From Coriobacteriia bacterium (GTDB lineage Bacteria > Actinomycetota > Coriobacteriia > Anaerosomatales > Anaerosomataceae), in assembly GCA_030651765.1 (NCBI GenBank), contig JAUSBY010000015.1, positions 1 through 64,000 of the forward strand: DNA of 64,000 nucleotides, written 5' to 3'. Position 1 is the first letter of the stretch; the number at the start of each line of letters is the position of its first letter. Of this stretch, positions 49,815-64,000 are shown in pieces. The notes under the pieces were generated by a model, which had not been told where the DNA came from, ran no database searches, and saw nothing but the letters and a program-made list of their open reading frames with translations. Position numbers and translations under genes: made by a program.

Positions 49815-50549
49815 ATGAGCGACGCGAGGGCGGACGAGGCGACGATGAGCGGTGCGGCGCCGAGCGGGGCCGGCAAGGCGAGCGAGCGTGGACCGTCGCG
49901 CGCATCCGAGCGGCTGGAGCCGCGCGTGCGCGACCGGATGCCGGCCGACTTCCGGGAGGCCGTGGACTTCCACGGACACCTCTGTCCGGGACTCACGATC
50001 GGGTATCGGGCGGCGCGGATGACGATGGAGCGGCTCGGTGTGGAGCGCGGCGCCGACGAGGAGCTCGTGGGCATCGTGGAGACCGACGCGTGCGGCGTCG
50101 ACGCGTTCCAGTACCTCACCGGCTGCACGCTCGGCAAGGGCAACCTGATCTACCGTGACTACGGCAAGCAGGTGTTCACGCTCGTGCGGCGGGCCGACGG
50201 GCGCGGCGTGCGCGTGTCGATGCGCTCGGACGCGCTCGAGCCGGATCCGGAGCGCACGGCACTCAAGACCCGCGTGATGTCGGGCGAGGCCACCGATGAG
50301 GAGCGCGCGTGGTTCTGGCAGGGGCATGTGGAGCGCGCCCTTGAGCTGGCCGAGATGCCGGCCGGGGAGTTCGGGACGGTGACCGAGGTCGTCGTGGAGC
50401 TGCCGCCGAAGGCGGGGGCGTTCGACTCGGTCATCTGCGCGGTGTGCGGCGAGGCGGTCATGGAGCCGCGCGCCCGCGTGCGTGACGGCGAATCGTGCTG
50501 CATCCCGTGTTCTACACGTTACAGCCGCGGTTGGGAGATCAACGCATAG
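49815..50549 (+). CDS. FmdE-domain protein with C-terminal zinc ribbon
   Basis: 244 residues. A disordered Ala/Glu/Arg-rich N-terminal ~50 residues precede an FmdE domain (REAVDFHGHLCPGLTIGYRA, then CGVDAFQYLTGCTLGKGNL, about residues 55-170) that binds metal through conserved Cys and His. A zinc ribbon follows (CAVCGEA, CCIPC). FmdE was first known from formylmethanofuran dehydrogenase operons but is also common next to metal ABC transporters in anaerobes without that enzyme. Here it heads the operon with a FecBCD-type transporter, so a metal-handling role is likely; the exact reaction is unknown. Confidence 0.88.
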   Translation: MSDARADEATMSGAAPSGAGKASERGPSRASERLEPRVRDRMPADFREAVDFHGHLCPGLTIGYRAARMTMERLGVERGADEELVGIVETDACGVDAFQYLTGCTLGKGNLIYRDYGKQVFTLVRRADGRGVRVSMRSDALEPDPERTALKTRVMSGEATDEERAWFWQGHVERALELAEMPAGEFGTVTEVVVELPPKAGAFDSVICAVCGEAVMEPRARVRDGESCCIPCSTRYSRGWEINA

Positions 50550-50586
50550 CGCCGAGGTGACGCGCGTCATCGGATCGGAGGAGCAC

Positions 50587-51795
50587 GTGAAGGTTGTGGA
50601 GCGCATGATTATGGTCGCGGCCATGAAGCGGGAGAAGCGCGCGCAGCGCACGACTACCGTGGCCCTGGCGTTCGCACTTGCCCTGGCGGTGCTCGCCGGG
50701 TGCACGGGTGGTGCGGATGACGCACCGCTGGCGCCCGGGGCATCCGAGACCCCCGAGACTCCCGCCGCCGATGCGCCTTCCGAGCGCCTCGTGACCGACC
50801 TAGCCGGGCGTGAGGTGACGGTCCCGGGTGCAGTCGAGCGCGTGGCGGCGGTCGGCCCGGGGTCGCTTCGGCTCGTCGTCTACGCGGGCGGCGCCGGGCG
50901 CATGGTAGGCATCGAGGAGTTCGAGACCCGGCCGCCGGTCGCGCGGCCGTACACGCTCGCGAATCCCGACCTGCTCGAGCTGCCGGTGATAGGTGCGGGC
51001 GGTCCCGACTCCACCCCGGACGCCGAGCGGCTGCTCGGCGCTGCCCCGGACGTCATCTTCATCGCGCAGATCGTCGACGGTGAGGCTGCCGACAAGCTCC
51101 AGGCCGCGACGGGTGTTCCCGTCCTGGTCGTCAGCTACGGGAACCCCGGCACTCTCGACGAGCCGTTCTTCACGTCGATGGAGCTCGTCGGCGAGGTGCT
51201 CGGCACATCGGAGCGCGCTGCCGAGGTCGTGGCATACGTGCGTGGCGCGCTCGCGGACCTCTCGGAGCGCACGGCAGACGTGCCGGATGCCGAAAGGGCC
51301 ACGGCATACGTGGGCGCGCTCGGCTTCAAGGGCGCGCGGGGCATCGAGAGTACGCAGCCGAAGTACCTGCCGTTTGCCGCCATCGGGGCGGCCAACGTCG
51401 CGGGTGACCTCGAGCAGCCCGGTTCGGTGATGATCGATCGCGAGCAGCTCCTCGCGTGGGACCCCGCGCACGTCTTCCTGGACCTCGGCGGACTCTCGCT
51501 CGTGCGCGAGGACGTCGCCGCCGACCGCGGGTTCTACGAGGGCCTGTCAGCCGCGCGCGAGCGGCGCGTGTACGCGCAGCTGCCCTTCAACAACTACTCC
51601 ACCAATGTTGAGATCGCGCTCGCCGACGCGTACTTCGCCGGCACCGTCCTGTTCCCGGAGCGCTTCGCCGACATCGACCCGGCAGCCAAGGCCGACGAGA
51701 TCGCCACCGTGCTCGTCGGTGAGCCGGTCTACGAGCGCCTGGCCGCCATCTACGGGAAGGGCTTCGGCGCCATCGACCTTCTCGGCGGGGAGTGA
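50587..51795 (+). CDS. FecB/BtuF-type ABC substrate-binding lipoprotein
   Basis: 402-residue substrate-binding protein of the type III (FecB/BtuF/FepB) fold. It has a lipoprotein signal (TTVALAFALALAVLAGC) with an unusually long basic leader, VTDLAGREVTVPGAVERVAA at the start of the binding domain, and two lobes joined by one long helix. GTG 50587 has GGAGGAG immediately upstream; an ATG at 50623 lacks a site. Ligand could be cobalamin, heme, a siderophore or a metal chelate. Proximity to the B12-dependent mutase favours cobalamin, whereas the FmdE neighbour favours a metal chelate. I cannot decide. Confidence 0.85.
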   Translation: MKVVERMIMVAAMKREKRAQRTTTVALAFALALAVLAGCTGGADDAPLAPGASETPETPAADAPSERLVTDLAGREVTVPGAVERVAAVGPGSLRLVVYAGGAGRMVGIEEFETRPPVARPYTLANPDLLELPVIGAGGPDSTPDAERLLGAAPDVIFIAQIVDGEAADKLQAATGVPVLVVSYGNPGTLDEPFFTSMELVGEVLGTSERAAEVVAYVRGALADLSERTADVPDAERATAYVGALGFKGARGIESTQPKYLPFAAIGAANVAGDLEQPGSVMIDREQLLAWDPAHVFLDLGGLSLVREDVAADRGFYEGLSAARERRVYAQLPFNNYSTNVEIALADAYFAGTVLFPERFADIDPAAKADEIATVLVGEPVYERLAAIYGKGFGAIDLLGGE

Positions 51796-52865
51796 TCGTG
51801 TCGCACGAACACGCGTATCGCACGCGATACGCTGCCTACACGCGGCGCAAGGTCGCGGTGACCGCCGGGCTCGTCCTGGCAGTTGCACTTGCGGCCGTCT
51901 ACGCGGTGCAGGCGGGCTCGGCCGGACTCTCGGTGGCCGAAGTGCTCCGCGCGCTGGCGGGCTCGGGTGAGGAGGCCGCGTCGCTCATCGTCTGGAACAT
52001 CCGGATGCCGAGGGTGGTCGCGGCGATCGTGGCAGGCATCGGGCTTGCGATATCCGGCGCGGTCATGCAGGGCGTGCTACGCAACCCGCTTGCCTCGCCC
52101 TTCACGCTCGGCATCTCGCAGGGCGCGGCCTTCGGCGCCGCGCTCGCCATCATCGGCTTCGGCGCCGGCATGACCGGGACCGCCGCGGCCGATGCGGTGC
52201 GCATCTCCAACGTGTGGTCCGTAGCCGGTTTCGCCTTCGCCGGCGCGATGGCCGCCACGCTCGCCGTGCTCGCGATCTCCCGCACGCGTGGCGCCACGCC
52301 GGAGACCATCGTGCTCGCCGGCGTGGCGCTCGGCGCGCTCTTCTCGGCCGCCACGGCGCTCATGCAGTACTTCGCCGAGGACACACAGGTCGCGGCCGTG
52401 GTCTTCTGGACGTTCGGCGACCTCGGTCGGGCCGCCTGGCGCGACGTGGGTGTGATGGCCGCTGTGGTCGCTGCGTGCGGCGCGTACTTCCTGTGGCACC
52501 GCTGGGACTACAACGCGCTCGAGACCGGCGCCGAGTCGGCGCACGGGCTGGGCGTGGAGGTGGAGCGCGTGCGGCTGCTCGGCATGCTCGTGGCGTCGCT
52601 TGCCACAGCCGTGATCGTCGCGTTTCTCGGGATCATCGGGTTCATCGGGCTGGTGGGCCCACACCTCGTGCGGCGCGTGATGGGAAGCGACCACCGCTTC
52701 TTGCTACCGGCGTCGGCGGCGGCCGGCGCGCTGCTGCTGCTCGTGGCCGACACGGTCGGCCGGACGCTCATCTCGCCGGTCGTGCTGCCGGTGGGAGCCA
52801 TCACGTCTTTTCTCGGGGCCCCGCTGTTCCTGTACCTGCTCGTGGCCGGGAGGCGGTCGGCATGA
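51792..52865 (+). CDS. FecCD/BtuC-type ABC transporter permease
   Basis: 357-residue permease with about ten membrane helices. Family motifs are RMPRVVAAIVAGIGLAISGA and VMQGVLRNPLASPFTLGISQ, then GIIGFIGLVGPHLVRRVMGS (coupling region) and GRTLISPVVLPVGAITSFLG near the end. GTGA overlap with the binding-protein stop and ATGA overlap with the ATPase start show one transcript. Builds the channel for the siderophore/cobalamin-type importer. Confidence 0.93.
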   Translation: MIVSHEHAYRTRYAAYTRRKVAVTAGLVLAVALAAVYAVQAGSAGLSVAEVLRALAGSGEEAASLIVWNIRMPRVVAAIVAGIGLAISGAVMQGVLRNPLASPFTLGISQGAAFGAALAIIGFGAGMTGTAAADAVRISNVWSVAGFAFAGAMAATLAVLAISRTRGATPETIVLAGVALGALFSAATALMQYFAEDTQVAAVVFWTFGDLGRAAWRDVGVMAAVVAACGAYFLWHRWDYNALETGAESAHGLGVEVERVRLLGMLVASLATAVIVAFLGIIGFIGLVGPHLVRRVMGSDHRFLLPASAAAGALLLLVADTVGRTLISPVVLPVGAITSFLGAPLFLYLLVAGRRSA

Positions 52866-53626
52866 TGCTCCGTGTCGAGGGTGTCACGTTCGCCTATCGC
52901 AGCGTCCCCGTGCTCGACGGCGTGGACTTCTCCGTCGGGCCCGGGGAGTTCCTTGCGGTGCTCGGCAACAACGGTGCCGGCAAGTCCACGCTGCTCCGGT
53001 GCATCACGCGCATCGTCCGACCACACACCGGCGCGGTCTATCTGGACGAGCGCGACGTGCACGCGCTCGGTAGCAGCGAACGTGCGCGGAACGTCGGCTA
53101 CGTGCCGCAGCGCACCGAGGCGAGCCACATGACCGTGTACGACGCGGTGCTCGTTGGCCGCACCCCGCACATCACGTGGGACGCTTCTCACGAAGACCAC
53201 CACGTGGTGGAGCGCGTGCTGGCCGAGCTGGGTCTCGAGGGTCTCGCGATGCGGCCGATCGACGAGCTTTCCGGCGGCGAGTTACAGAAGACCGTAATCG
53301 CCCGCGCGCTCGCGCAGGAGCCGCGGGTGCTCCTGCTCGATGAGCCCACTTCGAGCCTGGACCTGCGCAACCAGCTCGACGTGCTGGCCACCGTCAAGCG
53401 TGTCACCTCGGCGCAGGGCGTTGCCGTCATCGCGGTGATGCACGACCTCAACCTGGCGCTCCGCTTCGCCGACCGGTTCTGCTTCCTCGCCGACGGGCGC
53501 GTTCACGCCTGCGGCGGGCCGGAGGTCGTGACGTCGGAGAACGTCTCGCACGTCTATGGGGTGCCCGTGAGCGTGACGTCTGTCGGCGATGTGCCGCTCG
53601 TGGTGCCGCTCGCGTCGTCGTCGTAG
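52862..53626 (+). CDS. FecE/BtuD-type ABC transporter ATPase
   Basis: 254 residues: Walker A GNNGAGKST, signature LSGGELQKT, Walker B LLLDEPTSSLD and H-loop VMHDLN. The ATG at 52862 overlaps the permease stop; the open frame upstream belongs to the permease region in another phase and is not translated as a fusion. Completes the importer. The next gene (MutL/GlmL-like) is on the same strand 79 bases downstream with its own ribosome-binding site. Confidence 0.93.
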   Translation: MMLRVEGVTFAYRSVPVLDGVDFSVGPGEFLAVLGNNGAGKSTLLRCITRIVRPHTGAVYLDERDVHALGSSERARNVGYVPQRTEASHMTVYDAVLVGRTPHITWDASHEDHHVVERVLAELGLEGLAMRPIDELSGGELQKTVIARALAQEPRVLLLDEPTSSLDLRNQLDVLATVKRVTSAQGVAVIAVMHDLNLALRFADRFCFLADGRVHACGGPEVVTSENVSHVYGVPVSVTSVGDVPLVVPLASSS

Positions 53627-53705
53627 GCTCCTCGTACCGCTCCCGTGGTTGGCCGAGCCGTGCTCGCCCGTGCGATGATTGGCCCGACCGGAGAGGAGCC
53701 GCCGC

Positions 53706-55046
53706 GTGCCCGAGCCCCGTCGCATAGACGCCCTGGTAGCCGAGATCGGATCGACCACCACGGTCGTGAGTGCCTTCGACGGCCTGTCCGGCTGGCCCGA
53801 TTCTACGCCCGCGCTCATCGGGCAGGGCGTAGCGCCCACAAGTGTGGCTGCCGGTGACGTGGGGATCGGCCTTGCCGCAGCGCGTGAGGCGCTCGAGGCG
53901 CAGGTCGGGCCACTCGAGCCGGGCGTCACGCTCGCCACCTCGTCGGCGGCGGGCGGTCTGCGCATGACCGTGCATGGGCTCACGCACAAGATGACCGCGA
54001 TGGCCGCACGCGAGGCGGCGCTCGGCGCCGGAGGCGTGCTCGAGTACCAGACGGCGGGCCGGCTGCGCGAGCATGATCTCGAGGAGATCGAAGAGGCGCG
54101 CCCAGGGCTCATCTTGCTCGCCGGCGGTGTGGAGGGCGGCGACACAGAGGTGGTGCTCCACAACGCGCGTCGGCTGACCGAGCTCGCAGCGCGGCCCATC
54201 GTCGTATACGCCGGCAACTCGGCGGTGGCCGCCGAGGCGCGCGCCACGCTCGAGGCGGCTGGCTTCGTCGTGCGTGTCACGGACAACGTGTATCCCGCCG
54301 TAGACGAGCTCGATATCGTGCCGGCGCGTCACGTGATCCACGACGCGTTCGAGGAACACATCACCCACGCGCCGGGCATGGAACACATCGGCGAGTACGT
54401 GAGCGGGCGCATCTTGCCCACGCCGGGCGCCGTCCTTATCGCTGCGGAGCTCCTGGCCGATGAGCTCGGCGACCTCGTGGTGGTCGACGTCGGCGGTGCT
54501 ACGAGCGACGTCCACTCGGTCACCGATGGCTCCCCCGATATCGCGGCGATCTCCACCGACCCGCAACCGCACGCAAAGCGCACCGTTGAAGGCGACCTCG
54601 GCACGTACGTGAGCGCCGCACACACGGCCGCACTCATCGGCGAGGGTGAGCGGCCCGGACACCTGCCGCCGGCGATCCCGTTCACTCCCGCCGACATCGA
54701 GGCTGCCGCGCTGCTGGCGCGCGCGGCGACGGTCACCGCGATGACGCGCCATGCGGGCCGTTTCGCGCACCTCTACACGCCGAAGGGCCGCCAGACGGTC
54801 GCGCACGGACGGGACCTCACGGCCTGCCGACTCGTCATCGGAACCGGTGGCGCGCTCGTGCGGCTCCCGGGAGGGGAGGCGGCGCTCGCCGCGACTCTCG
54901 GCGGACCCGGCGAGTATCTGCTGCCCCCCGCGGATGCCCGGGTGGCCCTCGATCACGACTACGTCTTCGCGTGCTGCGGTGCGCTCGCGTCGCGTTTCGC
55001 GCCCGGCGCGGTCGTCGCACTCATGCGCGTGAGCATCGGCGTCTAG
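53706..55046 (+). CDS. MutL/GlmL-type reactivating factor homologue
   Basis: 446-residue ASKHA-fold ATPase of the MutL/GlmL family (often annotated as glutamate mutase L). Residues IGSTTTVVSAFDG at the N-terminus form the phosphate-1 loop; VVDVGGATSDVHSV is the second loop, and IGTGGALVRLPGG lies near the C-terminus. Such proteins occur next to B12-dependent aminomutases, including in ornithine clusters, and are thought to exchange inactivated cobalamin cofactor. GTG 53706 has GAGAGGAG seven bases upstream; an in-frame TTG at 53679 precedes that site. Likely partner of OraSE (inference from family and context). Confidence 0.87.
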   Translation: MPEPRRIDALVAEIGSTTTVVSAFDGLSGWPDSTPALIGQGVAPTSVAAGDVGIGLAAAREALEAQVGPLEPGVTLATSSAAGGLRMTVHGLTHKMTAMAAREAALGAGGVLEYQTAGRLREHDLEEIEEARPGLILLAGGVEGGDTEVVLHNARRLTELAARPIVVYAGNSAVAAEARATLEAAGFVVRVTDNVYPAVDELDIVPARHVIHDAFEEHITHAPGMEHIGEYVSGRILPTPGAVLIAAELLADELGDLVVVDVGGATSDVHSVTDGSPDIAAISTDPQPHAKRTVEGDLGTYVSAAHTAALIGEGERPGHLPPAIPFTPADIEAAALLARAATVTAMTRHAGRFAHLYTPKGRQTVAHGRDLTACRLVIGTGGALVRLPGGEAALAATLGGPGEYLLPPADARVALDHDYVFACCGALASRFAPGAVVALMRVSIGV

Positions 55047-56073: not shown

Positions 56074-57930
56074 CTACACCACCCCCACCAGTCCGAGCTT
56101 CTGCAGCGTCTCCTCGGTGGGAAGTCCGCTCTCGCGGTCCCAGCCCATCGCCGCGTAGAAGCTGTCGAGTGACACGTCGAGGCGTGCGATCTGGCCCTCG
56201 CCGCGGCCATCGACCGCTGCCTCACTCGTGATGCGCCGGGGCAGCGTGTCGTCGGCTCGTGTGAGCCCGAACCGTGCATTGACGAGCCGTTCCAGGTTGA
56301 TGACCCGCTCGGCCGCCTTGAGCATGTCCTCCTTGGTCCAGGTCTCGCCGGTGGCCGCCGAGAGCACGGCCGCCCATGTGGAGGGCTGGACCGCCAGCGT
56401 GATCACGGAGAACAGACACACGCCGAGGAGGTTCGTCGCCATGGAGAACTCCATGAACGGCTTGACCCACTGCTGGTTGTCGTCGTCCAGGAAGTCGACG
56501 TCGTAGGTGAGCCCGAGCTCCTCGTTGCGGTAGCCGAACGCGTCGACGACCGATGCATATGGCCGCAGGTGGTCCGCGCCTCGCGGTGAGACCGCGTGGC
56601 TGATGCCCTCACCCTTGCTTGCCCGCACGCCACAGCTTGCGAGTTCCACACCCTTGACCTCGAACGTGTAGTCGGCCGCATCTCCGCCGAGGGCCACCGC
56701 CGCGCGCTTCGAGCCATCGGCGAGCATGTCGCCGATGCCGGTGCGGCTGGCGATCTTGTGCAGCACGTCGGGGAAGATCTCGCCGTTGCCCCAGGTGAAC
56801 TCGATGCCGCCGGTCAGCTCGGGCGTGAGGATGCCCTTCTCGTACCACTCCATCGCGATCGCGATGACCTGACCGGCCGCGATCGTGTCCAGACCGAGGT
56901 CGTTGCACAGGTGCCCGGCCACCACGATAGCGTTCAAGTCGGTGACCAGGCACTTCGCGCCGAAGGCCCCGAGTGTCTCGTACTCCGGCCCGCCTCCGGT
57001 CTCGCCGGCATGCGGCCCGGTCGTGATGGTTGTCGTGCGACCGCAGGCCACAGGGCAGCCCCAACACGCGTACGGCTTCACGTCGAGCGTCGCGTGGTAC
57101 GCCGCATGGCCGAGGGTGTCGATCGACTCGGGAAACGTCGTCCGACGCCAGTTCTGTGTCGGCAGGATGCCGAGCGCGCTGATCGAGTCGTAGAAGCTCG
57201 GCGTGCCGAACGGTTTGAGTTCGGCAGCCACGAACTCCTCGGCGAGGAACTCTTCGCGCGCCTGCTTCGCGTGTGTCTTGAGCCCCTCGGGGTCCGCGAT
57301 CGGGAGCGGCTGCGTGCCGCGCACGGCGAACGCCTTGAGGTTCTTGGCGCCCATCGCCGCTCCGCCGCCGCCGCGTCCGGCCGCGCGCTCCTTGTCGGTC
57401 ATGATTGCGGCGTACATGACGCCGTTCTCGCCTGCGGGTCCGATCGCCGCGATCTGCCAGCCTCGGCCGTCGAGCTCGGCGCGGATGGCCTCCTCGGTGT
57501 CGTGGATACCCGAGCCCCACAGGCCCATCGCATCACGGACCTCCACCGAATCGCCGTCGATCACGACGTAGACGGGGTTATCCGCGGCGCCGGTGAAGAC
57601 GATCATGTCGTAGCCGGCCTTCTTGATGGCGGGCGAGAGCTGGCCGCCCACGTTGCTCAGCCCCAGCGCCCCCGAGGCCGGCGAGCGGAACACGAAGCAC
57701 GTGCGTCCCGACGACGGCGCCGCCGTGCCGGTGAGCGGTCCTACCGCTGCGATCAACGGCTGAGAGGGATCGAGCGGAGGTGCGTCGTAGTCGACCAGGT
57801 CGGCGAACAGGCGCACGGCTGCGCCCTCGCCGCCGATGTAGTCGCGGAACCACGCCTCGGGAAGCGTGCGTTTCTCGGCAGTGCCGGTGGCCAGATCCAC
57901 CATGAGTGCTGTACCCCAGTTGCCGTTCAT
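56074..57930 (-). CDS. aor: Tungsten-dependent aldehyde:ferredoxin oxidoreductase
   Basis: 618 residues, the normal AOR length. N-terminal domain with the tungstopterin-binding pattern (AAIMTDKERAAGRGGGGAAM, MGAKNLKAFAVRG). The [4Fe-4S] cluster uses CWGCPVACGR (about residues 285-294) and the Cys of LLGVCLFS near residue 498. Oxidises aldehydes to acids with ferredoxin, or runs the reverse acid reduction. In a Stickland-type ornithine fermenter it could handle aldehydes from amino acid degradation. ATG 57930 has GGAGAGGAG six bases upstream; the longer frame is unrelated. Divergent from orr across a 163-base region. Confidence 0.94.
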   Translation of the reverse strand: MNGNWGTALMVDLATGTAEKRTLPEAWFRDYIGGEGAAVRLFADLVDYDAPPLDPSQPLIAAVGPLTGTAAPSSGRTCFVFRSPASGALGLSNVGGQLSPAIKKAGYDMIVFTGAADNPVYVVIDGDSVEVRDAMGLWGSGIHDTEEAIRAELDGRGWQIAAIGPAGENGVMYAAIMTDKERAAGRGGGGAAMGAKNLKAFAVRGTQPLPIADPEGLKTHAKQAREEFLAEEFVAAELKPFGTPSFYDSISALGILPTQNWRRTTFPESIDTLGHAAYHATLDVKPYACWGCPVACGRTTTITTGPHAGETGGGPEYETLGAFGAKCLVTDLNAIVVAGHLCNDLGLDTIAAGQVIAIAMEWYEKGILTPELTGGIEFTWGNGEIFPDVLHKIASRTGIGDMLADGSKRAAVALGGDAADYTFEVKGVELASCGVRASKGEGISHAVSPRGADHLRPYASVVDAFGYRNEELGLTYDVDFLDDDNQQWVKPFMEFSMATNLLGVCLFSVITLAVQPSTWAAVLSAATGETWTKEDMLKAAERVINLERLVNARFGLTRADDTLPRRITSEAAVDGRGEGQIARLDVSLDSFYAAMGWDRESGLPTEETLQKLGLVGVV

Positions 57931-58093: not shown

Positions 58094-59161
58094 ATGTCCG
58101 GTCGCGCGGTAGTCACCGTTGATCTGCGCAAGGTCGCCGAGAACACGCGTCGCGTCGTCGACGCGCTCGGCGGGCGTTCGGTCATCGGCGTGACGAAGGT
58201 GACGTGTGGTTCCGCACAGGTCGCCCGCGCGATGCTCGTTGGCGGCGCAGCCGGCATCGCCGACTCGCGGCTCGAGAACCTCGCGGGTCTGCGAGCCGCC
58301 GGGATCGATGTGCCGCTGTGGCTGCTACGCGCGCCGGTTCCCGCGCTTGCCGACGAGACCGTGCGTGTCGCCGATGTCTCGCTGGAAAGCGAGGTCGAGA
58401 CGATCGAAGCGCTCGACGCGGCCGCGTATCGGCTGGGCAGACGCCACCGTGTCGTGGCGATGGTGGACCTGGGCGATCTGCGCGAAGGGATGCTGCCCGA
58501 TGCGCTGCCGACGTTCGTCGAGCGCGCCGAGTCGATGCCGAACATCGAGCTGCTCGGCATCGGTACGAGTCTGACATGCTACGGCGCGATCGTCCCGGAC
58601 GCCGAGAACCTCGGCGAACTTGTTGCGCTTACACAGTCTGCAGAAGCCCGCATCGGGCGCCGCTTGCTCGTCTCGGGCGGCATGTCGTCCTCACTGGACG
58701 CGCTCGTGGCCGGCACCCTGCCCGAGCGTATCGACAGCCTGCGTATCGGCGAGAGCATCCTGCTCGGCGTCTCCACCGTCACGCGCGAACCCATCCTCGG
58801 CCTGCACACCGATGCGATTCTGGCCTCCGCACCGGTCATCGAGGTCATGCGCAAGCCCAGCGCGCCGCACGGCACCGTCGCGCAGGACGCCTTTGGTGGC
58901 ACGCCGACGTTCCGTGACCGCGGCGAGCGGCTGCGGGCGATCTGCGCCATCGGCCATCAGGATGTGGTGCCCACCGGCATCAAGCCACTCGATTCGCGCA
59001 TCGGGGTACTCGGCGCATCGAGCGATCACCTGGTGCTGGATGTGGAGGACATGCCCGCTGCGCCGCACGTGGGTGACGAGATCGCGTTCCTGCCCGGCTA
59101 CAGTGCGACGCTCAGGCTCTTCACGTCGGCCTACGTGGAGAAGCGGTTCGTGGGCGAGTAG
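58094..59161 (+). CDS. orr: PLP-dependent ornithine racemase
   Basis: 355-residue fold-type III PLP enzyme (alanine-racemase N-terminal family). The PLP lysine is in VIGVTKVTCG (about residue 35). Later motifs GIGTSLTCYGAIVPD and IRVGESILLG-like (LRIGESILLGVST) match the ornithine racemase/YhfX branch. Converts L-ornithine to the D-form used by OraSE. ATG has GAGAGGA six bases upstream. It ends 18 bases before the promoter of the Cys-rich repeat cluster. Confidence 0.9.
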   Translation: MSGRAVVTVDLRKVAENTRRVVDALGGRSVIGVTKVTCGSAQVARAMLVGGAAGIADSRLENLAGLRAAGIDVPLWLLRAPVPALADETVRVADVSLESEVETIEALDAAAYRLGRRHRVVAMVDLGDLREGMLPDALPTFVERAESMPNIELLGIGTSLTCYGAIVPDAENLGELVALTQSAEARIGRRLLVSGGMSSSLDALVAGTLPERIDSLRIGESILLGVSTVTREPILGLHTDAILASAPVIEVMRKPSAPHGTVAQDAFGGTPTFRDRGERLRAICAIGHQDVVPTGIKPLDSRIGVLGASSDHLVLDVEDMPAAPHVGDEIAFLPGYSATLRLFTSAYVEKRFVGE

Positions 59162-59178
59162 GGTTGGCGCGCGTGCCG

Positions 59179-59206
59179 TTGTGCGCTTCGGCTGGCGGAG
59201 TATGAT
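59179..59206 (+). promoter_or_regulatory. Promoter of the Cys-repeat/radical SAM cluster
   Basis: TTGTGC (59179-59184), 16-base spacer, TATGAT (59201-59206). The expected start near 59213 gives a leader of ~80 bases that contains a short reading frame with a strong ribosome-binding site. Confidence 0.55.
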
Positions 59207-59245
59207 GAGGCTGCGAGATCGTGCAGATGCGGAGGGGGCGCCGCG

Positions 59246-59317
59246 ATGAGTCAGACTGCCTTGCTGCCGTCCGCAGCTATATGCGGAGGTGGCGATGAGC
59301 GAGGACCCCAGGGGTAG
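59246..59317 (+). CDS. Possible 23-codon leader ORF overlapping the Cys-repeat gene start
   Basis: ATG at 59246 with GGAGGGGGC about seven bases upstream encodes a 23-residue peptide (MSQTALLPSAAICGGGDERG...) that stops at 59315-59317, after the start of the main gene at 59295 in another frame. Either a translationally coupled leader peptide that controls precursor synthesis, or an unused start. No homology is claimed. Confidence 0.3.
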   Translation: MSQTALLPSAAICGGGDERGPQG

Positions 59318-59774
59318 CGCGGGGGAACCGGAAGAGCCGAAGGTCTTTCGGATCGCGCAGCTGCCCGCCCCGGATCGCACGGGGATGAACCGGCGCACGT
59401 TCGTGAAGGCAACCGCCGCGGGTGCGGGCGCGGGTGCGCTCGTCACGGTTCTCGGTGGATGCCTGCCGTTCTCGGCCGCCTGCGAGTGCGACGCCGAGGA
59501 CGAGAGCGGATGCACCACCCAGTCCGACGAGGAGACCGACACCGACGAGAGCATCGAGTGCGAGTGCGATGCGGTCTGCACCTGCGAGACGGTCTGCACG
59601 TGCGACAACGAGTGCAGCTGCGATGCGGTGTGCACCTGCGAAGCCGTATGCACGTGCGAGAGTGATTGCTCGTGCGACAGCGTCTGCACCTGCGAGGCGG
59701 TGTGCACCTGCGAGGGCGACTGCACGTGCGACTCCGTGGGCGGTGGCGGCGGCCACTACTGGTATCCCACCTAG
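59295..59774 (+). CDS. Tat-exported lipoprotein with ten C-x-C-[D/E]-x-x hexads; likely radical SAM substrate
   Basis: 159 residues from ATG 59295 (GGAGG five bases upstream; an in-frame GTG at 59289 is inside that site). Residues 1-30 form a hydrophilic leader (EPKVFRIAQLPAPDRTG). A twin-arginine motif (NRRTFVKAT) and a hydrophobic stretch ending in a lipobox (VLGGC, Cys56) follow. The mature part has a Cys pair (CECDAEDESGC), an acidic spacer, then ten hexads C-x-C-[D/E]-x-x (residues 89-148) and the tail GGGGGHYWYPT. Every hexad has two cysteines and an acidic residue in the same register; three 18-residue super-repeats can be aligned. Radical SAM genes follow within 31 bases. Function unknown; see findings. 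Confidence 0.9.
   Translation: MSEDPRGSAGEPEEPKVFRIAQLPAPDRTGMNRRTFVKATAAGAGAGALVTVLGGCLPFSAACECDAEDESGCTTQSDEETDTDESIECECDAVCTCETVCTCDNECSCDAVCTCEAVCTCESDCSCDSVCTCEAVCTCEGDCTCDSVGGGGGHYWYPT
59559..59738 (+). repeat. Coding tandem repeat: ten 18-bp hexad units, last nine as three 54-bp super-repeats
   Basis: One CECDAV hexad (59559-59576) precedes three 54-bp units at 59577-59630, 59631-59684 and 59685-59738. Each unit encodes C-T-C-E-x-V / C-T-C-x-x-x / C-[S/T]-C-D-x-V. Synonymous differences between units (for example Val GTC/GTA/GTG, Glu GAG/GAA) show the protein pattern is kept while DNA drifts. Confidence 0.9.
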
Positions 59775-59804
59775 CGGCTGCGACGCGTGCGGACAAAGGA
59801 ATGC

Positions 59805-61205
59805 ATGGGGATCTCCTGGCAGGCGCTCGGCGATACCGTGTTCCTGGTCTCCCGCGACGGGGACCGGCCGCTGCTCTACGCCCCGCTCCAGGGTCTCGTG
59901 CTCGAGGCCAACGATGCGTACGTCGAGCGATTCCGCGCTGCGCTGGGTGCCGACGAGGACGCAGCCCGGGCGATCGGTCTTGAGCCCGAAACGGTGGCCG
60001 ACCTCGCGCGCGTGCCCGATGAGGTCCGACGCACATTCGACCCGGTGTGGCCTGAGGTGTTCGAGCCAACGTCGGTGACGCTCTTCCTCACGCACAAGTG
60101 CACGCTCAGGTGCGTGTACTGCTACTGCGAGGGCGGCGCGGGGCGCGACATCGACTGGCCCGTACTCGAGCGTGCGGTCCGCTTCGCCCTCGACAACGCC
60201 AAGCGCCTCGGCAGGGATGCGCGCGTCGCTTTTCACGGAGGTGACGTGGGCGCATGCTGGCCGCTGTTCCGGCGCGCGGTTGAGTTCGTGGAGGCCGAGA
60301 GTGCGGCGGCGGGCGTGAAGACGTCGATGTCCATCGGCACGAACGGGTTCTATACCGAGGAGCAGGCGGCCTACATCGCCGCGCACATCGCCAGCGCGAC
60401 GGTCTCGATCGACGGCACGCCGACGGTGCACGACCGGTCGCGGATCACGCCGGGTGGAGGTCCATCGCTGGCCACCGTGCTGCGTTCGCTCGCCATCTTC
60501 GAGAGCGAGGGGCTCTCCTACTCGATCAGGATGACGGTCACGGCCGAGTCGCTGCCGGCGCTCGCCGAGAGCATGGCGTACCTGTGCGAGAACACGCACG
60601 CACGCACGATCAGAGCCGAGCCACTCTACGCACGCGGGCGTGCCACCGTCTCACACCTCCAGGCGCCAGACCCGGAGGCCTTTGTGGCAGCGTACCGCCA
60701 GGCGAGGACGGTGGCCGAACGGTACGGACGGCAGCTGACGTACTCGGGCGCGCGCATCTCAGGGCCAGCACCCGCGTTCTGCTCGTTCGCCCGGCCCACG
60801 TTCGGCGTCACGCCCGACGGGGACCTCACGTGCTGCTACGAGATCCTGCACCCGGACGACCCGCTCGCCACCGAGTTCTTCTACGGGCACATCGAGCCGG
60901 ACGGTTCGGCGATCGTCGTGGACGAGGAGCAGGTCGCCGCCATCCGGGCGGGAGCGAAGGCGCGTCGGCAGGGCTGCGCGCACTGCTTCTGTGTCTACGC
61001 GTGCGCCGGTGATTGCGCGGCCAAGACTATCGACAGCGGTCGCGGTGACGGGGAGTCCACCGGCCGGTGCGAGATCACCCGCGCACTCGTGTACGACATG
61101 CTCGGGCGCGCGCTTGCGGGCGAGGATCCCACGAGGCCGTCCCGCGATACCCCCCGCGCGGCACCCGGCGCCGTTGGCCCGCACATTCGCGTGGAGCAGT
61201 CCTGA
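59805..61205 (+). CDS. Radical SAM/SPASM-type maturase 1
   Basis: 466 residues. Starts at ATG 59805 with AAAGGA four bases upstream; an in-frame GTG at 59787 is possible. Residues ~1-90 form an N-terminal domain that may bind the precursor. The radical SAM [4Fe-4S] motif CTLRCVYC (CxxxCxxC) is near residue 102. The C-terminal half has SPASM-like cysteines (CSFARPTFGVTPDGDLTCC; CAHCFCVYACAGDC; a last Cys in GRCEITR). SPASM enzymes carry extra Fe-S clusters and modify peptides, for example by thioether bond formation. Lies 30 bases after the repeat lipoprotein gene, which is its probable substrate. Confidence 0.92.
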   Translation: MGISWQALGDTVFLVSRDGDRPLLYAPLQGLVLEANDAYVERFRAALGADEDAARAIGLEPETVADLARVPDEVRRTFDPVWPEVFEPTSVTLFLTHKCTLRCVYCYCEGGAGRDIDWPVLERAVRFALDNAKRLGRDARVAFHGGDVGACWPLFRRAVEFVEAESAAAGVKTSMSIGTNGFYTEEQAAYIAAHIASATVSIDGTPTVHDRSRITPGGGPSLATVLRSLAIFESEGLSYSIRMTVTAESLPALAESMAYLCENTHARTIRAEPLYARGRATVSHLQAPDPEAFVAAYRQARTVAERYGRQLTYSGARISGPAPAFCSFARPTFGVTPDGDLTCCYEILHPDDPLATEFFYGHIEPDGSAIVVDEEQVAAIRAGAKARRQGCAHCFCVYACAGDCAAKTIDSGRGDGESTGRCEITRALVYDMLGRALAGEDPTRPSRDTPRAAPGAVGPHIRVEQS

Positions 61206-62290
61206 TGGCCGGCATGCCGGCCGAGTTCGTGCCGGAGTGCCTCACGGTCTTCCGCTCCAATGAGTGCAACCTCGCATGCCGCTACTGTCACGCGTCGCCC
61301 GGCACCGCGTCGGGCCCGCCGATCTCGGATCGCGTCCTCGCCGATGCCGCGGACATCGTGGCCGGTTCGTGCGCGCGTCACGGTATCGCGATGACCTTCG
61401 CGCTCCTTGGCGGTGGTGAGCCGCTGCTCGACCGCGCGGACGCCGCGCGCATACTCGGCATCCTGCGCGAGCGTGCAGCGGCGGCGGGCGTGCCGCTGCG
61501 CACCTACGTCGCCACCAACGGCGTCGTGCCCGAGGAGACCGTCCGGTGGGCGGCGGCCGAGTTCGACCTCATCGGCCTCTCCTGCGACGGCCCGCCCGCC
61601 GTCCAGGACGCGCAGCGTCCGACCCGCGGAGGAGGGCCGAGCTCGCCGCACATCGAACGCGCGGCTGCCGCGCTGCGCGAGTCCGGGAGGCCCTTCCACG
61701 TCCGGGCGACGGTGACCGCCGACTCGCTCGGGATGCAGTCGGACGTCGTCGCGTACGCCGTCGGCACGCTGGGGGCCGCCGAGGTGCGTCTGGAGCCGGT
61801 CTACGCGAACCCCGGCGCCACTCCGCAGTTCACGGCCGACGATGCCGATGCGTTCTGCGACGGCTTCCTCGCCGCGCGGCGCGCGGGTGCCGAGCTCGGC
61901 GTGCCCGTGACCACCTCGCTCATGCGCCCGAACGAGGCGCACGGCCCGCACTGCAACGTGCTGCGGGGCGTGGTGAATCTCACGCCCGACGGAATCGCCA
62001 CCGGGTGCTTCCTCGAGTCGCGTGCCGAGGGCATCGATGCCCGGCGCGTCCGCGTGGGTGGCATCCACCCGGTCACCGGCCGCTTCGAACTCGACTCTGC
62101 ACGGGTCGCTGAGCTTGCGGCCGCGTGCGGTCGCGTGCCCGAGGAGTGCCGCGACTGCCCTCTCGAGGACGCGTGCTCGAGGGCATGTCCTGACATCTGC
62201 ATGCTCGGCACCGGCTCCGGCGCGCCGCATCAGGGCACGTTTCGCTGCAGGGTGCAGCTGCGTCTGGCGGCAGAGGCGGTGCGCGCATGA
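61205..62290 (+). CDS. Radical SAM/SPASM-type maturase 2
   Basis: 361 residues beginning at the ATG that shares one base with the previous stop (TGATG). The radical SAM motif is CNLACRYC near residue 20, so there is no N-terminal extension, unlike maturase 1. A glycine-rich SAM-binding segment (LLGGGEPLL) and SPASM-like cysteines (PHCNVLRG, CRDCPLEDACSRACPDIC, FRCRVQ) are present. ATGA overlap with the next gene. Predicted to act on the Cys-repeat lipoprotein or to cooperate with maturase 1. Confidence 0.9.
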   Translation: MAGMPAEFVPECLTVFRSNECNLACRYCHASPGTASGPPISDRVLADAADIVAGSCARHGIAMTFALLGGGEPLLDRADAARILGILRERAAAAGVPLRTYVATNGVVPEETVRWAAAEFDLIGLSCDGPPAVQDAQRPTRGGGPSSPHIERAAAALRESGRPFHVRATVTADSLGMQSDVVAYAVGTLGAAEVRLEPVYANPGATPQFTADDADAFCDGFLAARRAGAELGVPVTTSLMRPNEAHGPHCNVLRGVVNLTPDGIATGCFLESRAEGIDARRVRVGGIHPVTGRFELDSARVAELAAACGRVPEECRDCPLEDACSRACPDICMLGTGSGAPHQGTFRCRVQLRLAAEAVRA

Positions 62291-63678
62291 CGACGATGCC
62301 ACCGACCATCGACCCGGACGAGGTCTACGCGCTCCCGCTCGCCGACCGCTGGATGCTCTTCGCGCCGGCCACCTGGAGCGTGGCGGTCGTGAACCGCGCC
62401 GCACTCGGCGGGCTTGCCGAGTGCGTGGGGCCGAAACGCCAGGCGCCCTCCCTCGATGCGCTCGACCTCTGGCAGACGCTGACCGTCGCGGTGCCGGGCG
62501 CGGCGGACCACCGCGGGCGCGACGAGGACAAGCTCGTCATCATGCCCACGCGGGCGTGCAACATCCGGTGCCTCCACTGTGACTTCGGCTCGGATGATGC
62601 GCCGATCACCGTGCTCGACCCGCGCCTCACGTACCCGCTCATCGATCGGCTGGCCGCCGAACTCCGCCGCAAGCGCGAGCACACCATGCGGGTGCACTTC
62701 TTCGGCGGCGAGCCGCTTGTGGCGCGTCGGGCGGTGGAGAACATCGTCGCGTACACGCGCTCGGCGTGCGCGAAGGCCGGGCTCGTGCCCGCATTCGAAC
62801 TCACCACCAACGGCGTTTGCGATGCCGAGACTGCGATGTTCCTCGGCGACGAGATCGACTCGGTGGTCATCTCGATCGAGGGAGATGAGGTGCTGCACGA
62901 CGGCATCCGGCGCCATCGCGACGGTCGCGGGACGTACGCCGAGGTGGCAGCCACGATCCGGCGACTCGGCAGGTATCCCGCCGAGGTCTGTCTGCGCACG
63001 TGCGTGACGAACCGCTCGGTGGATGCGATGCCTGAGATCGCCGAGCACTTCTGCCGCGAGTTCACGTTCGACGTACTCGCCTTCGAGATGCTCGTGGAGA
63101 CCCCGCGCGGCGTCGAGGCGGGTCTGCGCGCACCCGACCCGTACGCCTTCGCCAGCGGAGTGATGGCTGCCGAAGCGGTCGCTGCCGAACACGGGGTACG
63201 CGTGGTGCACAGCACTTCGGAACTGGTGGGACCGCGAACCACGTCGTGTCCGCTCGGCCGCGGCACGCTGATGCTCTGGCCGGACGGTTCGATCACCGCC
63301 TGCTATCTCGATCCCGGGCGGTGGCGCGCCAACGGGCTCGAGCTGTCGCTCGGGCGGGTGGACGCCACCGGCGCCGTGCGGCTCAACACGCGGCGCCTGG
63401 GCGCGATCGCGCGGGCGATCACCGTCAAGCCACGGTGCGAGCGGTGCTTCTGCAGGTACACGTGCGCGGGTGGGTGCCACGTGGAGCAGACGCCGCCCGG
63501 CTGCTCGCCCGAGTACGACGACCGGTGCCGGGCCATTCGCCTCATCACGGCGAGCCGGCTGCTCGCGAGCATCGGAGATGCCGCCGATGCGGCGCGGATG
63601 CTTGCGCGGCCGGCTGCAGCCGAGGCGCTCGCGCTCAACGCCGACGACCGCCTGCGCAGCTGGGCGAAGACGTGGTGA
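62287..63678 (+). CDS. Radical SAM/SPASM-type maturase 3
   Basis: 463 residues. N-terminal ~85 residues precede the radical SAM motif CNIRCLHC (near residue 97); FFGGEPLV is the SAM-binding Gly motif. SPASM-like cysteines occur at CPLGRGTLMLWPDGSITAC, CERCFCRYTCAGGC and CSPEYDDRC. The CFC-YxCAGxC pattern is shared with maturase 1, suggesting the two are paralogues that diverged. Start ATG overlaps the previous stop by four bases. Confidence 0.9.
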   Translation: MTTMPPTIDPDEVYALPLADRWMLFAPATWSVAVVNRAALGGLAECVGPKRQAPSLDALDLWQTLTVAVPGAADHRGRDEDKLVIMPTRACNIRCLHCDFGSDDAPITVLDPRLTYPLIDRLAAELRRKREHTMRVHFFGGEPLVARRAVENIVAYTRSACAKAGLVPAFELTTNGVCDAETAMFLGDEIDSVVISIEGDEVLHDGIRRHRDGRGTYAEVAATIRRLGRYPAEVCLRTCVTNRSVDAMPEIAEHFCREFTFDVLAFEMLVETPRGVEAGLRAPDPYAFASGVMAAEAVAAEHGVRVVHSTSELVGPRTTSCPLGRGTLMLWPDGSITACYLDPGRWRANGLELSLGRVDATGAVRLNTRRLGAIARAITVKPRCERCFCRYTCAGGCHVEQTPPGCSPEYDDRCRAIRLITASRLLASIGDAADAARMLARPAAAEALALNADDRLRSWAKTW

Positions 63679-63685
63679 GGCCGCC

Positions 63686-64000
63686 GTGGCGAACCTGTCC
63701 GTGACGCGCCGCTGCGAGCGCGCCTGCCCCTTCTGCTTCGCCGCCGACGAGCGTGCGACGGGCCCGCTCGACATGAGCGCCGATGTCTTCGAGGCCGCAC
63801 TCGACTTCCTCGAGCGGTCGGGTGTCCCCGACGCGCGCCTCCTCGGCGGCGAGCCGATGCTCCACCCGGCGTTCGCCTCGCTCGCTGACCGCGCCCTCGA
63901 GCGCGGCTTCGCGCTGACGGTGATGACCGGCGGGCTCGTGCCCGAGGTGGCGGTCGCGCATCTGACGACGCTTCCCGCCGGGCGGGTGAGGGTCTTCCTC
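63686..64000 (+). CDS. Radical SAM protein 4 (cut by window end)
   Basis: First 105 codons of a further radical SAM protein, starting at GTG 63686 with GTGAGG six bases upstream. The CxxxCxxC motif CERACPFC lies within the first 20 residues and LLGGEPMLHP is the SAM-binding Gly motif. The frame stays open to the window end, so the presence of a SPASM domain cannot be judged. Separated from maturase 3 by only seven bases, so it belongs to the same operon. Confidence 0.85.
   Translation, partial: MANLSVTRRCERACPFCFAADERATGPLDMSADVFEAALDFLERSGVPDARLLGGEPMLHPAFASLADRALERGFALTVMTGGLVPEVAVAHLTTLPAGRVRVFL

Follow-up and report, generated by a model that had tools for sequence, protein, structure and literature searches.

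We propose that the gene at positions 59295 to 59774 (+ strand) probably encodes the precursor of a RiPP-like modified lipoprotein, whose array of CxC hexads would be modified by the radical SAM enzymes of the same operon. The window, i.e., the whole stretch of DNA that was analyzed, comprises the first 64,000 nucleotides of contig JAUSBY010000015.1 of a Coriobacteriia bacterium (GCA_030651765.1; genome G000 in this study). The strongest evidence for this proposal is that CxC precursors recur beside SPASM enzymes in two divergent arrangements, which are referred to here as type 1 and type 2. A RiPP precursor is expected to be genomically coupled to its modifying enzymes and to carry a conserved leader, and both features were found. 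The protein also resembles RiPP precursors in having a conserved leader and tail around a variable repeat.

The precursor gene and the type-1 operon

The precursor is the first gene of a seven-gene operon. It is followed by four radical SAM/SPASM-type genes (m1–m4), a U32-like gene and a HutW/HemW-like radical SAM gene. The features are as follows (window positions, unless contig positions are given).

59281..59294, + strand: ribosome-binding-like sequence GGAGGTGGCG ahead of the ATG at 59295 (read from the sequence)
59295..59774, + strand: precursor gene, 159 amino acids plus stop (orthologues share the start Met and the HYWYP end)
59331..59360, + strand: N-terminal EEPKVFRIAQ, before the Tat motif (E-x-P-K-V-x-R-I-A-Q invariant in five orthologues)
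59391..59462, + strand: twin-arginine motif RRTFVK, hydrophobic stretch and lipobox-type LGGC with Cys56 (TIGR01409; lipobox read by eye)
59463..59558, + strand: acidic linker with one extra CxC, CECD (sequence and orthologue alignment)
59559..59738, + strand: ten CxC[D/E]xx hexads (translation, shuffles and ordering test)
59739..59771, + strand: C-terminal tail GGGGGHYWYPT (HYWYP invariant in five orthologues)
59805..61205, + strand: m1, radical SAM/SPASM enzyme with CTLRCVYC, the full seven-Cys SPASM motif and an N-terminal extension of ~85 amino acids (profiles, motif)
61205..62290, + strand: m2, radical SAM/SPASM enzyme without the N-terminal extension; its start overlaps the m1 stop (profiles, motif)
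62287..63678, + strand: m3, radical SAM/SPASM enzyme; its start overlaps the m2 stop (profiles, motif)
63686..64000, continuing to contig position 64654, + strand: m4, radical SAM enzyme with a SPASM-like C-terminal end and a GTG start (profiles, motif)
contig 64661–65608, past the window end, + strand: U32-like gene (weak Pfam U32 match)
ending at contig 66966, past the window end, + strand: HutW/HemW-like radical SAM gene (profile)

The precursor gene occurs in single copy in the genome. Its Tat signal passed the TIGR01409 cut-off (20 bits vs. 16.7) and fell just under that of Pfam TAT_signal (E 1.7e-4; 21.8 bits vs. 22.7). TatC was found above cut-off in the window genome as well as in all 11 other genomes tested. 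The lipobox-type Cys, which follows LGG in the window, lies in GGC, SGC or TGC in the relatives when read by eye. From these signals the precursor is predicted to be an exported lipoprotein, and the conserved EEPKVFRIAQ stretch ahead of the Tat motif is a candidate recognition site for the maturases. Searches of Pfam and NCBIfam with the precursor returned no family besides the Tat signal and weak sub-cut-off matches. No match was found to the Pfam metallothionein profiles, nor to the Pfam hexapeptide-repeat up to E 10, and the only match of the precursor profile in PDB was a meaningless one to an acidic stretch. Promoter and terminator scans found nothing.

Each of m1, m2 and m3 contains CX3CX2C and a complete seven-Cys SPASM motif (i.e., CX9-15GX4C...CX2CX5CX3C...C), as defined previously (PMC5715301), and these motifs are invariant across the orthologues and paralogues. 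In m4, CX9GX4C is present, while the second part reads CX2CX7CX3C and the later Cys is missing. Among the NCBIfam models, PapB (NF047865) ranks first for m1 and m3, with 97.9 bits for m1, 61.4 for m2 and 96.9 for m3 against a cut-off of 340. Since m1 and m3 score so far under this cut-off, they are relatives of PapB and not members of its family. The same applies to the SCIFF maturase model TIGR03974 (m1, 66.8 bits; m2, 63.3; m3, 83.7; cut-off 425), and every NCBIfam match of the operon maturases lay far below its cut-off. TIGR03906 was also among the top matches of m1 and m3. The nearest PDB sequence to m1 is 5wgg (E 2e-20), which we take to be CteB, the SCIFF maturase. No Pfam match to an RRE/PqqD domain was detected up to E 10 in the ~85-amino-acid extensions of m1, m3 and the type-2 enzyme.

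The type-1 U32-like protein matched Pfam U32 under the cut-off (E 6e-4). The characterized U32 oxidases of the UbiU/TrhP type catalyze O2-independent hydroxylation in quinone synthesis and RNA and have the motif CX6CX15CX3C (PMC11574389); the seven conserved Cys of the type-1 protein are arranged differently. We treat the U32 proteins as a lead only. Inside the operon we found no gene for metal transport or metal sensing and identified no operon-specific peptidase gene.

The hexad array in the window

The array at 59559–59738 reads CECDAV CTCETV CTCDNE CSCDAV CTCEAV CTCESD CSCDSV CTCEAV CTCEGD CTCDSV in the + strand frame. Thus, the sequence-only reading had been exact, in pattern and in coordinates, in describing ten hexads with Cys at positions 1 and 3 and Asp or Glu at position 4. 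A four-fold CxC hexad pattern occurred seven times in the window, always within the array, and not once in 100 dinucleotide-preserving shuffles. Position 4 is acidic in 10/10 hexads; with 14 of the 40 non-Cys positions in the array being acidic, the hypergeometric chance of this is 1.2e-6, a value that overstates the case because the tandem copies are not independent. Alignment of the last nine hexads as three 18-residue units, also noted in that reading, was better than chance, with only 1296 of 362,880 orderings giving as high an in-register score; for the G007 orthologue the corresponding number was 6480 of 362,880.

Two features absent from the earlier description are an eleventh CxC (CECD), which sits shortly after the lipobox cysteine, and the Ser/Thr that occupies position 2 nearly as regularly as the acid does position 4 (9/10 array hexads). 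At the DNA level the ten hexads are all distinct, encoding nine distinct peptides, so that their regularity does not stem from fresh DNA duplication. Comparison of the hexads of G000 with those of G013, a genome of the same genus, revealed nine synonymous codon differences and one nonsynonymous difference, from which it follows that the hexads are under purifying selection at the protein level.

Type-1 orthologues

A close m1 orthologue was found in 5 of the 27 genomes of the family, representing 4 of 11 genera, and the arrangement of the seven genes is identical in all five genomes. The leader, the Tat motif, the following Cys and HYWYP are kept in all five precursors. The G007 precursor has ten hexads with D/E at position 4 throughout. 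That of G013 has nine, one hexad being lost and the 18-residue phase broken. In G014 and G025 the same operon encodes a precursor with only three CxC units, CTCDTEG-C[SA]CVGN-CTCN[AS]V, in which position 4 is D, V and N and one step is of 7 residues. The claim that every hexad carries an acid therefore stands for G000, G013 and G007 (29/29 hexads) and fails at the family level, where V, N, L or Q takes this position in 48 of 174 units, including those of G014 and G025. The operon is patchily present within genera, as G015 and G021–G024, which belong to the same genera as G014 and G025, are without it. This suggests loss or transfer.

Type-2 loci and the wider CxC family

A precursor profile search of 396 genomes of the class revealed a second group with CxC arrays; more than 100 generic Tat-signal matches were set aside and only matches covering the Cys region were kept. 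In 12 loci the gene order is SPASM enzyme, CxC precursor and TPR lipoprotein; wherever the retrieved stretch of contig extends far enough, genes for a B12-binding radical SAM enzyme and a U32 protein follow. Beyond these 12 full type-2 loci, 9 further CxC precursors adjoin type-2-like SPASM genes. A profile of the type-2 maturase identified 21 type-2 genomes of the class, including more divergent ones, and also the five type-1 genomes, while no loci outside the class were found in the phylum sample, neither sample being exhaustive. The wider phylum samples (396 genomes) returned the window's own genome only, and no relatives were found in viral contigs. In the scan of the whole collection for five-fold CxC hexads without an acid constraint, the matches listed were microsatellite-type frames only, and tblastn placed no m1–m3 homologue near these frames, among the matches listed.

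The type-2 precursors lack a Tat signal. Close to the N-terminal end they contain LPKPQIEIIVDGNS.FKPGMKTYFVD, and their last residues are SCG[SA]PC[AL]C[VI]PVH. Against Pfam and NCBIfam they matched no family, with at most weak sub-cut-off matches. The C-terminal tails (HYWYP in type 1; the above motif in type 2) vary less than the repeats do, and those of both precursor types may be modified or recognized. In the type-2 operons (L158–L169), the proteins encoded beside the CxC precursor include a B12-binding radical SAM enzyme, a TPR lipoprotein and a UbiU/TrhP-like U32 protein. The last of these exceeds the Pfam U32 cut-off (E 2.8e-12), lies under the cut-off of the UbiU model (E 2.7e-13) and has CX6C, although the full CX6CX15CX3C was not found. 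In divergent type-2 precursors (L190 of G467, L183, L186, L187 and L189), 8-residue TCSCVGHS-type repeats or CxCQ units give a different repeat period.

The profiles of m1 and the type-2 SPASM enzyme are homologous from end to end (hhalign E 3e-58; 32% identity). In the tree of m1–m3 and the type-2 enzymes long branches meet, and the tree does not decide which of the paralogues is the type-2 counterpart. The alignment between the type-1 and type-2 precursor profiles is confined to the Cys-rich part, whose low complexity raises the scores, so it does not demonstrate common descent of the two precursor types.

Position counts were made on 174 CxC units from 26 precursors of types 1 and 2. Position 2 is Ser/Thr in 164 units and position 6 is Val in 113, while position 4 is D/E in 126, the remainder being V (21), N (11), L (9) and Q (7). 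The step from one CxC to the next is 6 residues in 83 of 148 cases, and otherwise 8 (24 cases), 12 (18 cases), 13, 15 or others. Of the 21 type-2 precursors, 20 begin their array with CxCD. The family consensus is C-[S/T]-C-[D/E/V/N]-x-V, and the acid at position 4 is, by these counts, preferred and not obligatory. The check put forward earlier was whether orthologues vary in repeat number while C-x-C-[D/E] and the six-residue period stay fixed. The number does vary (3 to 10 units in type 1), but neither the motif nor the period is kept. At the family level the acid varies and the hexad period is lost, though a clear preference for the acid remains. The Ser/Thr that separates the two Cys is kept more strictly than the acid (164/174 vs. 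126/174). On these comparisons the CxC protein is best described as a variable member of an uncatalogued peptide family and not as a fixed geometric solenoid.

Proposed modification and alternative explanations

What we infer is that this protein serves as the substrate, which chemistry it undergoes, that modification precedes export, and that it becomes lipidated. In the proposed scheme, the CxC array, and perhaps also the HYWYP tail, would be modified in the cytoplasm by the radical SAM enzymes of the operon. Some CxC units would most likely acquire Cys-based cross-links of thioether type, and the U32-like and HutW-like enzymes might tailor the product further. Once rigidified, this product would be exported folded via Tat and anchored by the lipobox cysteine. 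The Tat pathway suits products that fold before export. Thioethers are plausible products, since the enzymes closest by profile (PapB, SCIFF and QhpD) form them and PapB tolerates spacings of n = 0 to 6; nevertheless, we put the chance that the array carries thioethers of any kind at slightly under even. Asp/Glu is not the only acceptor that the consensus allows, and Ser/Thr, Val or Asn may also be candidates; that Asp/Glu are the main acceptors is conceivable but doubtful. Besides the low profile scores of the maturases and the lack of a detected RRE/PqqD domain, other points count against the overall proposal: a length of 159 amino acids and a Tat lipoprotein signal are unusual in a RiPP precursor, and operon membership alone is no proof of a substrate.

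The original suggestion was more specific, namely that every hexad bears a Cys-Asp/Glu thioether, giving a regular ladder or a left-handed beta-solenoid with 18-residue coils. It draws on the acid in all 29 hexads of three genomes, on the 18-residue phase in the window and on the ability of PapB to link Cys to Asp/Glu in C-Xn-D with n from 0 to 6 (PMC9413430). An obligatory ladder is not supported, given the non-acidic position 4 in G014 and G025, which have the same operon, and in type 2 (48/174 units across the 26 precursors), nor is a regular solenoid, given the loss of a single hexad in G013, the irregular type-2 spacings (6, 8, 12, 13 and 15) and the lack of a Pfam hexapeptide-repeat match up to E 10. 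We therefore consider this arrangement quite unlikely. Replacement of the acid by V, N or L would instead fit thiolate binding, and a metallothionein-like secreted lipoprotein, in which CxC and acids bind metal or an Fe-S/thiolate cluster while the enzymes target a different part of it or a different substrate, is an unlikely alternative of somewhat greater weight. CxC-x3-CxC is common in metallothioneins, the long fungal ones consist of Cys blocks in variable number (PMC4755600), and bufferins, which are RiPPs with Cys motifs and signal peptides, handle copper (PMC12452194). However, metal binding leaves unexplained the pairing of CxC precursors with SPASM enzymes in two divergent locus groups, and the operon has no metal-transport or metal-sensing gene.

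Peptide-derived cofactors such as PQQ and mycofactocin exist, and several radical SAM enzymes together with U32/B12 enzymes are more than one type of cross-link needs. The CxC protein might accordingly be a carrier or partner only (e.g., a small-cofactor scaffold or an electron-transfer partner) and not the final product, but we regard this as very unlikely, as the type-1 Tat and lipobox signals imply that the protein itself leaves the cell and no operon-specific peptidase gene was identified. High GC keeps long antisense frames open (e.g., minus strand 58691–59725), and the generic CxC hexad scan gave microsatellite-type frames only, among the matches listed; the chance that the gene is itself a GC-driven spurious reading frame is nonetheless negligible. 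The orthologues conserve leader, Tat motif and tail as protein, a ribosome-binding-like sequence precedes the start site, the ten hexads differ in DNA and synonymous changes are in excess. An antisense or GC artifact is ruled out by the orthologue conservation. The link to radical SAM peptide chemistry, which the earlier reading had also drawn, is supported by the four SPASM-type genes in the operon, two of which have PapB as their best model, though far below cut-off, and by the SPASM genes adjoining CxC precursors in the second divergent group.

Comparison with known systems

PapA/PapB (freyrasin) resembles the CxC system in that m1, m3 and the type-2 enzyme all match the PapB profile (NF047865) best and the precursor has repeated Cys and Asp/Glu. 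The scores here are, however, 61–125 bits against a cut-off of 340. The native C-x3-D/E spacing of PapA is absent, the hexad acid lying at C-x2 and C-x0, and the acid is not conserved in the CxC family. The CxC operon has four SPASM-type enzymes plus U32-like and HutW-like enzymes instead of one, a Tat lipoprotein leader and a 159-amino-acid precursor. In vitro, PapB accepts C-Xn-D with n = 0–6 (PMC9413430), a range that covers the n = 0 and n = 2 of the hexads, so that spacing alone does not exclude PapB-type chemistry.

SCIFF (six Cys in forty-five; CteA/CteB) shares a Cys-rich precursor, and of the solved sequences 5wgg (CteB) comes closest to m1, but m1 reaches 67 bits against the TIGR03974 cut-off of 425. 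Unlike the CxC operon, SCIFF systems have short precursors and one maturase. To our knowledge, QhpC, the gamma subunit of quinohemoprotein amine dehydrogenase, has no repeats. QhpC/QhpD is nonetheless alike in that a SPASM-modified protein is later exported and that TIGR03906 is among the top matches of m1 and m3. The SPASM enzyme QhpD installs several Cys-to-Asp/Glu thioethers in QhpC, which is exported afterwards (PMC7876137). QhpC differs in that its leader is removed by QhpE before translocation to the periplasm and that it carries tryptophylquinone; no such protease or flavoprotein gene was seen in the CxC operon.

The bufferins are signal-peptide-bearing RiPPs with Cys motifs (PMC12452194). 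In contrast to these and other MNIO-modified Cys-motif precursors, the CxC operon has radical SAM enzymes and no identified MNIO-type gene, and its precursor has Tat plus lipobox, not Sec. The metallothionein TmMT of Tremella mesenterica also has repeated CxCx3 blocks (PMC4755600), but it is eukaryotic and without maturases, and the CxC precursor has no Pfam metallothionein match. Single features thus have precedents (QhpC, bufferins), while the combination appears to be new. Searches of open-licence papers for radical SAM with Tat and RiPP, U32 with RiPP, and Coriobacteria with RiPP yielded nothing on point.

If the proposal is true, the CxC protein would combine a RiPP-type nature with a Tat lipoprotein leader, a combination without precedent in our searches of open-licence papers, and would be made by an unusually enzyme-rich radical SAM pathway, and proteins of the U32 family would be placed beside peptide substrates. 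The natural series of type-1 precursors with 3 to 10 CxC units and the same enzyme set would provide a ready panel for the residue requirements of the enzymes. An appreciable but minor possibility is that the protein represents a novel type of cross-linked surface lipoprotein. It would be exported by Tat, anchored in the membrane and equipped with a long cross-link array made by radical SAM chemistry. Five radical SAM enzymes would build it together with a U32-type enzyme, which possibly hydroxylates peptide residues without oxygen, and it would be one member of a wider CxC-repeat family in the class.

Neighboring genes and overlapping frames

Minus-strand open frames at 58691–59725 and 59277–60599 cross the hexads, with SQVHTA-type repeats, as an effect of the GC-rich repeat. 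An aldehyde ferredoxin oxidoreductase gene (56074–57900, minus strand) lies near the operon in G013 and G014 as well; it is absent near the G025 operon and is therefore probably not part of the operon. The Orr-like gene just upstream of the operon in the window was likewise not found beside the operon in G025. It belongs to the ornithine-degradation genes at 49815–55046 and 58094–59161 (GlmL-related Or-4 and Orr-like ornithine racemase, both below cut-off), which adjoin genes for an FmdE protein and an FecCD-type ABC transporter.
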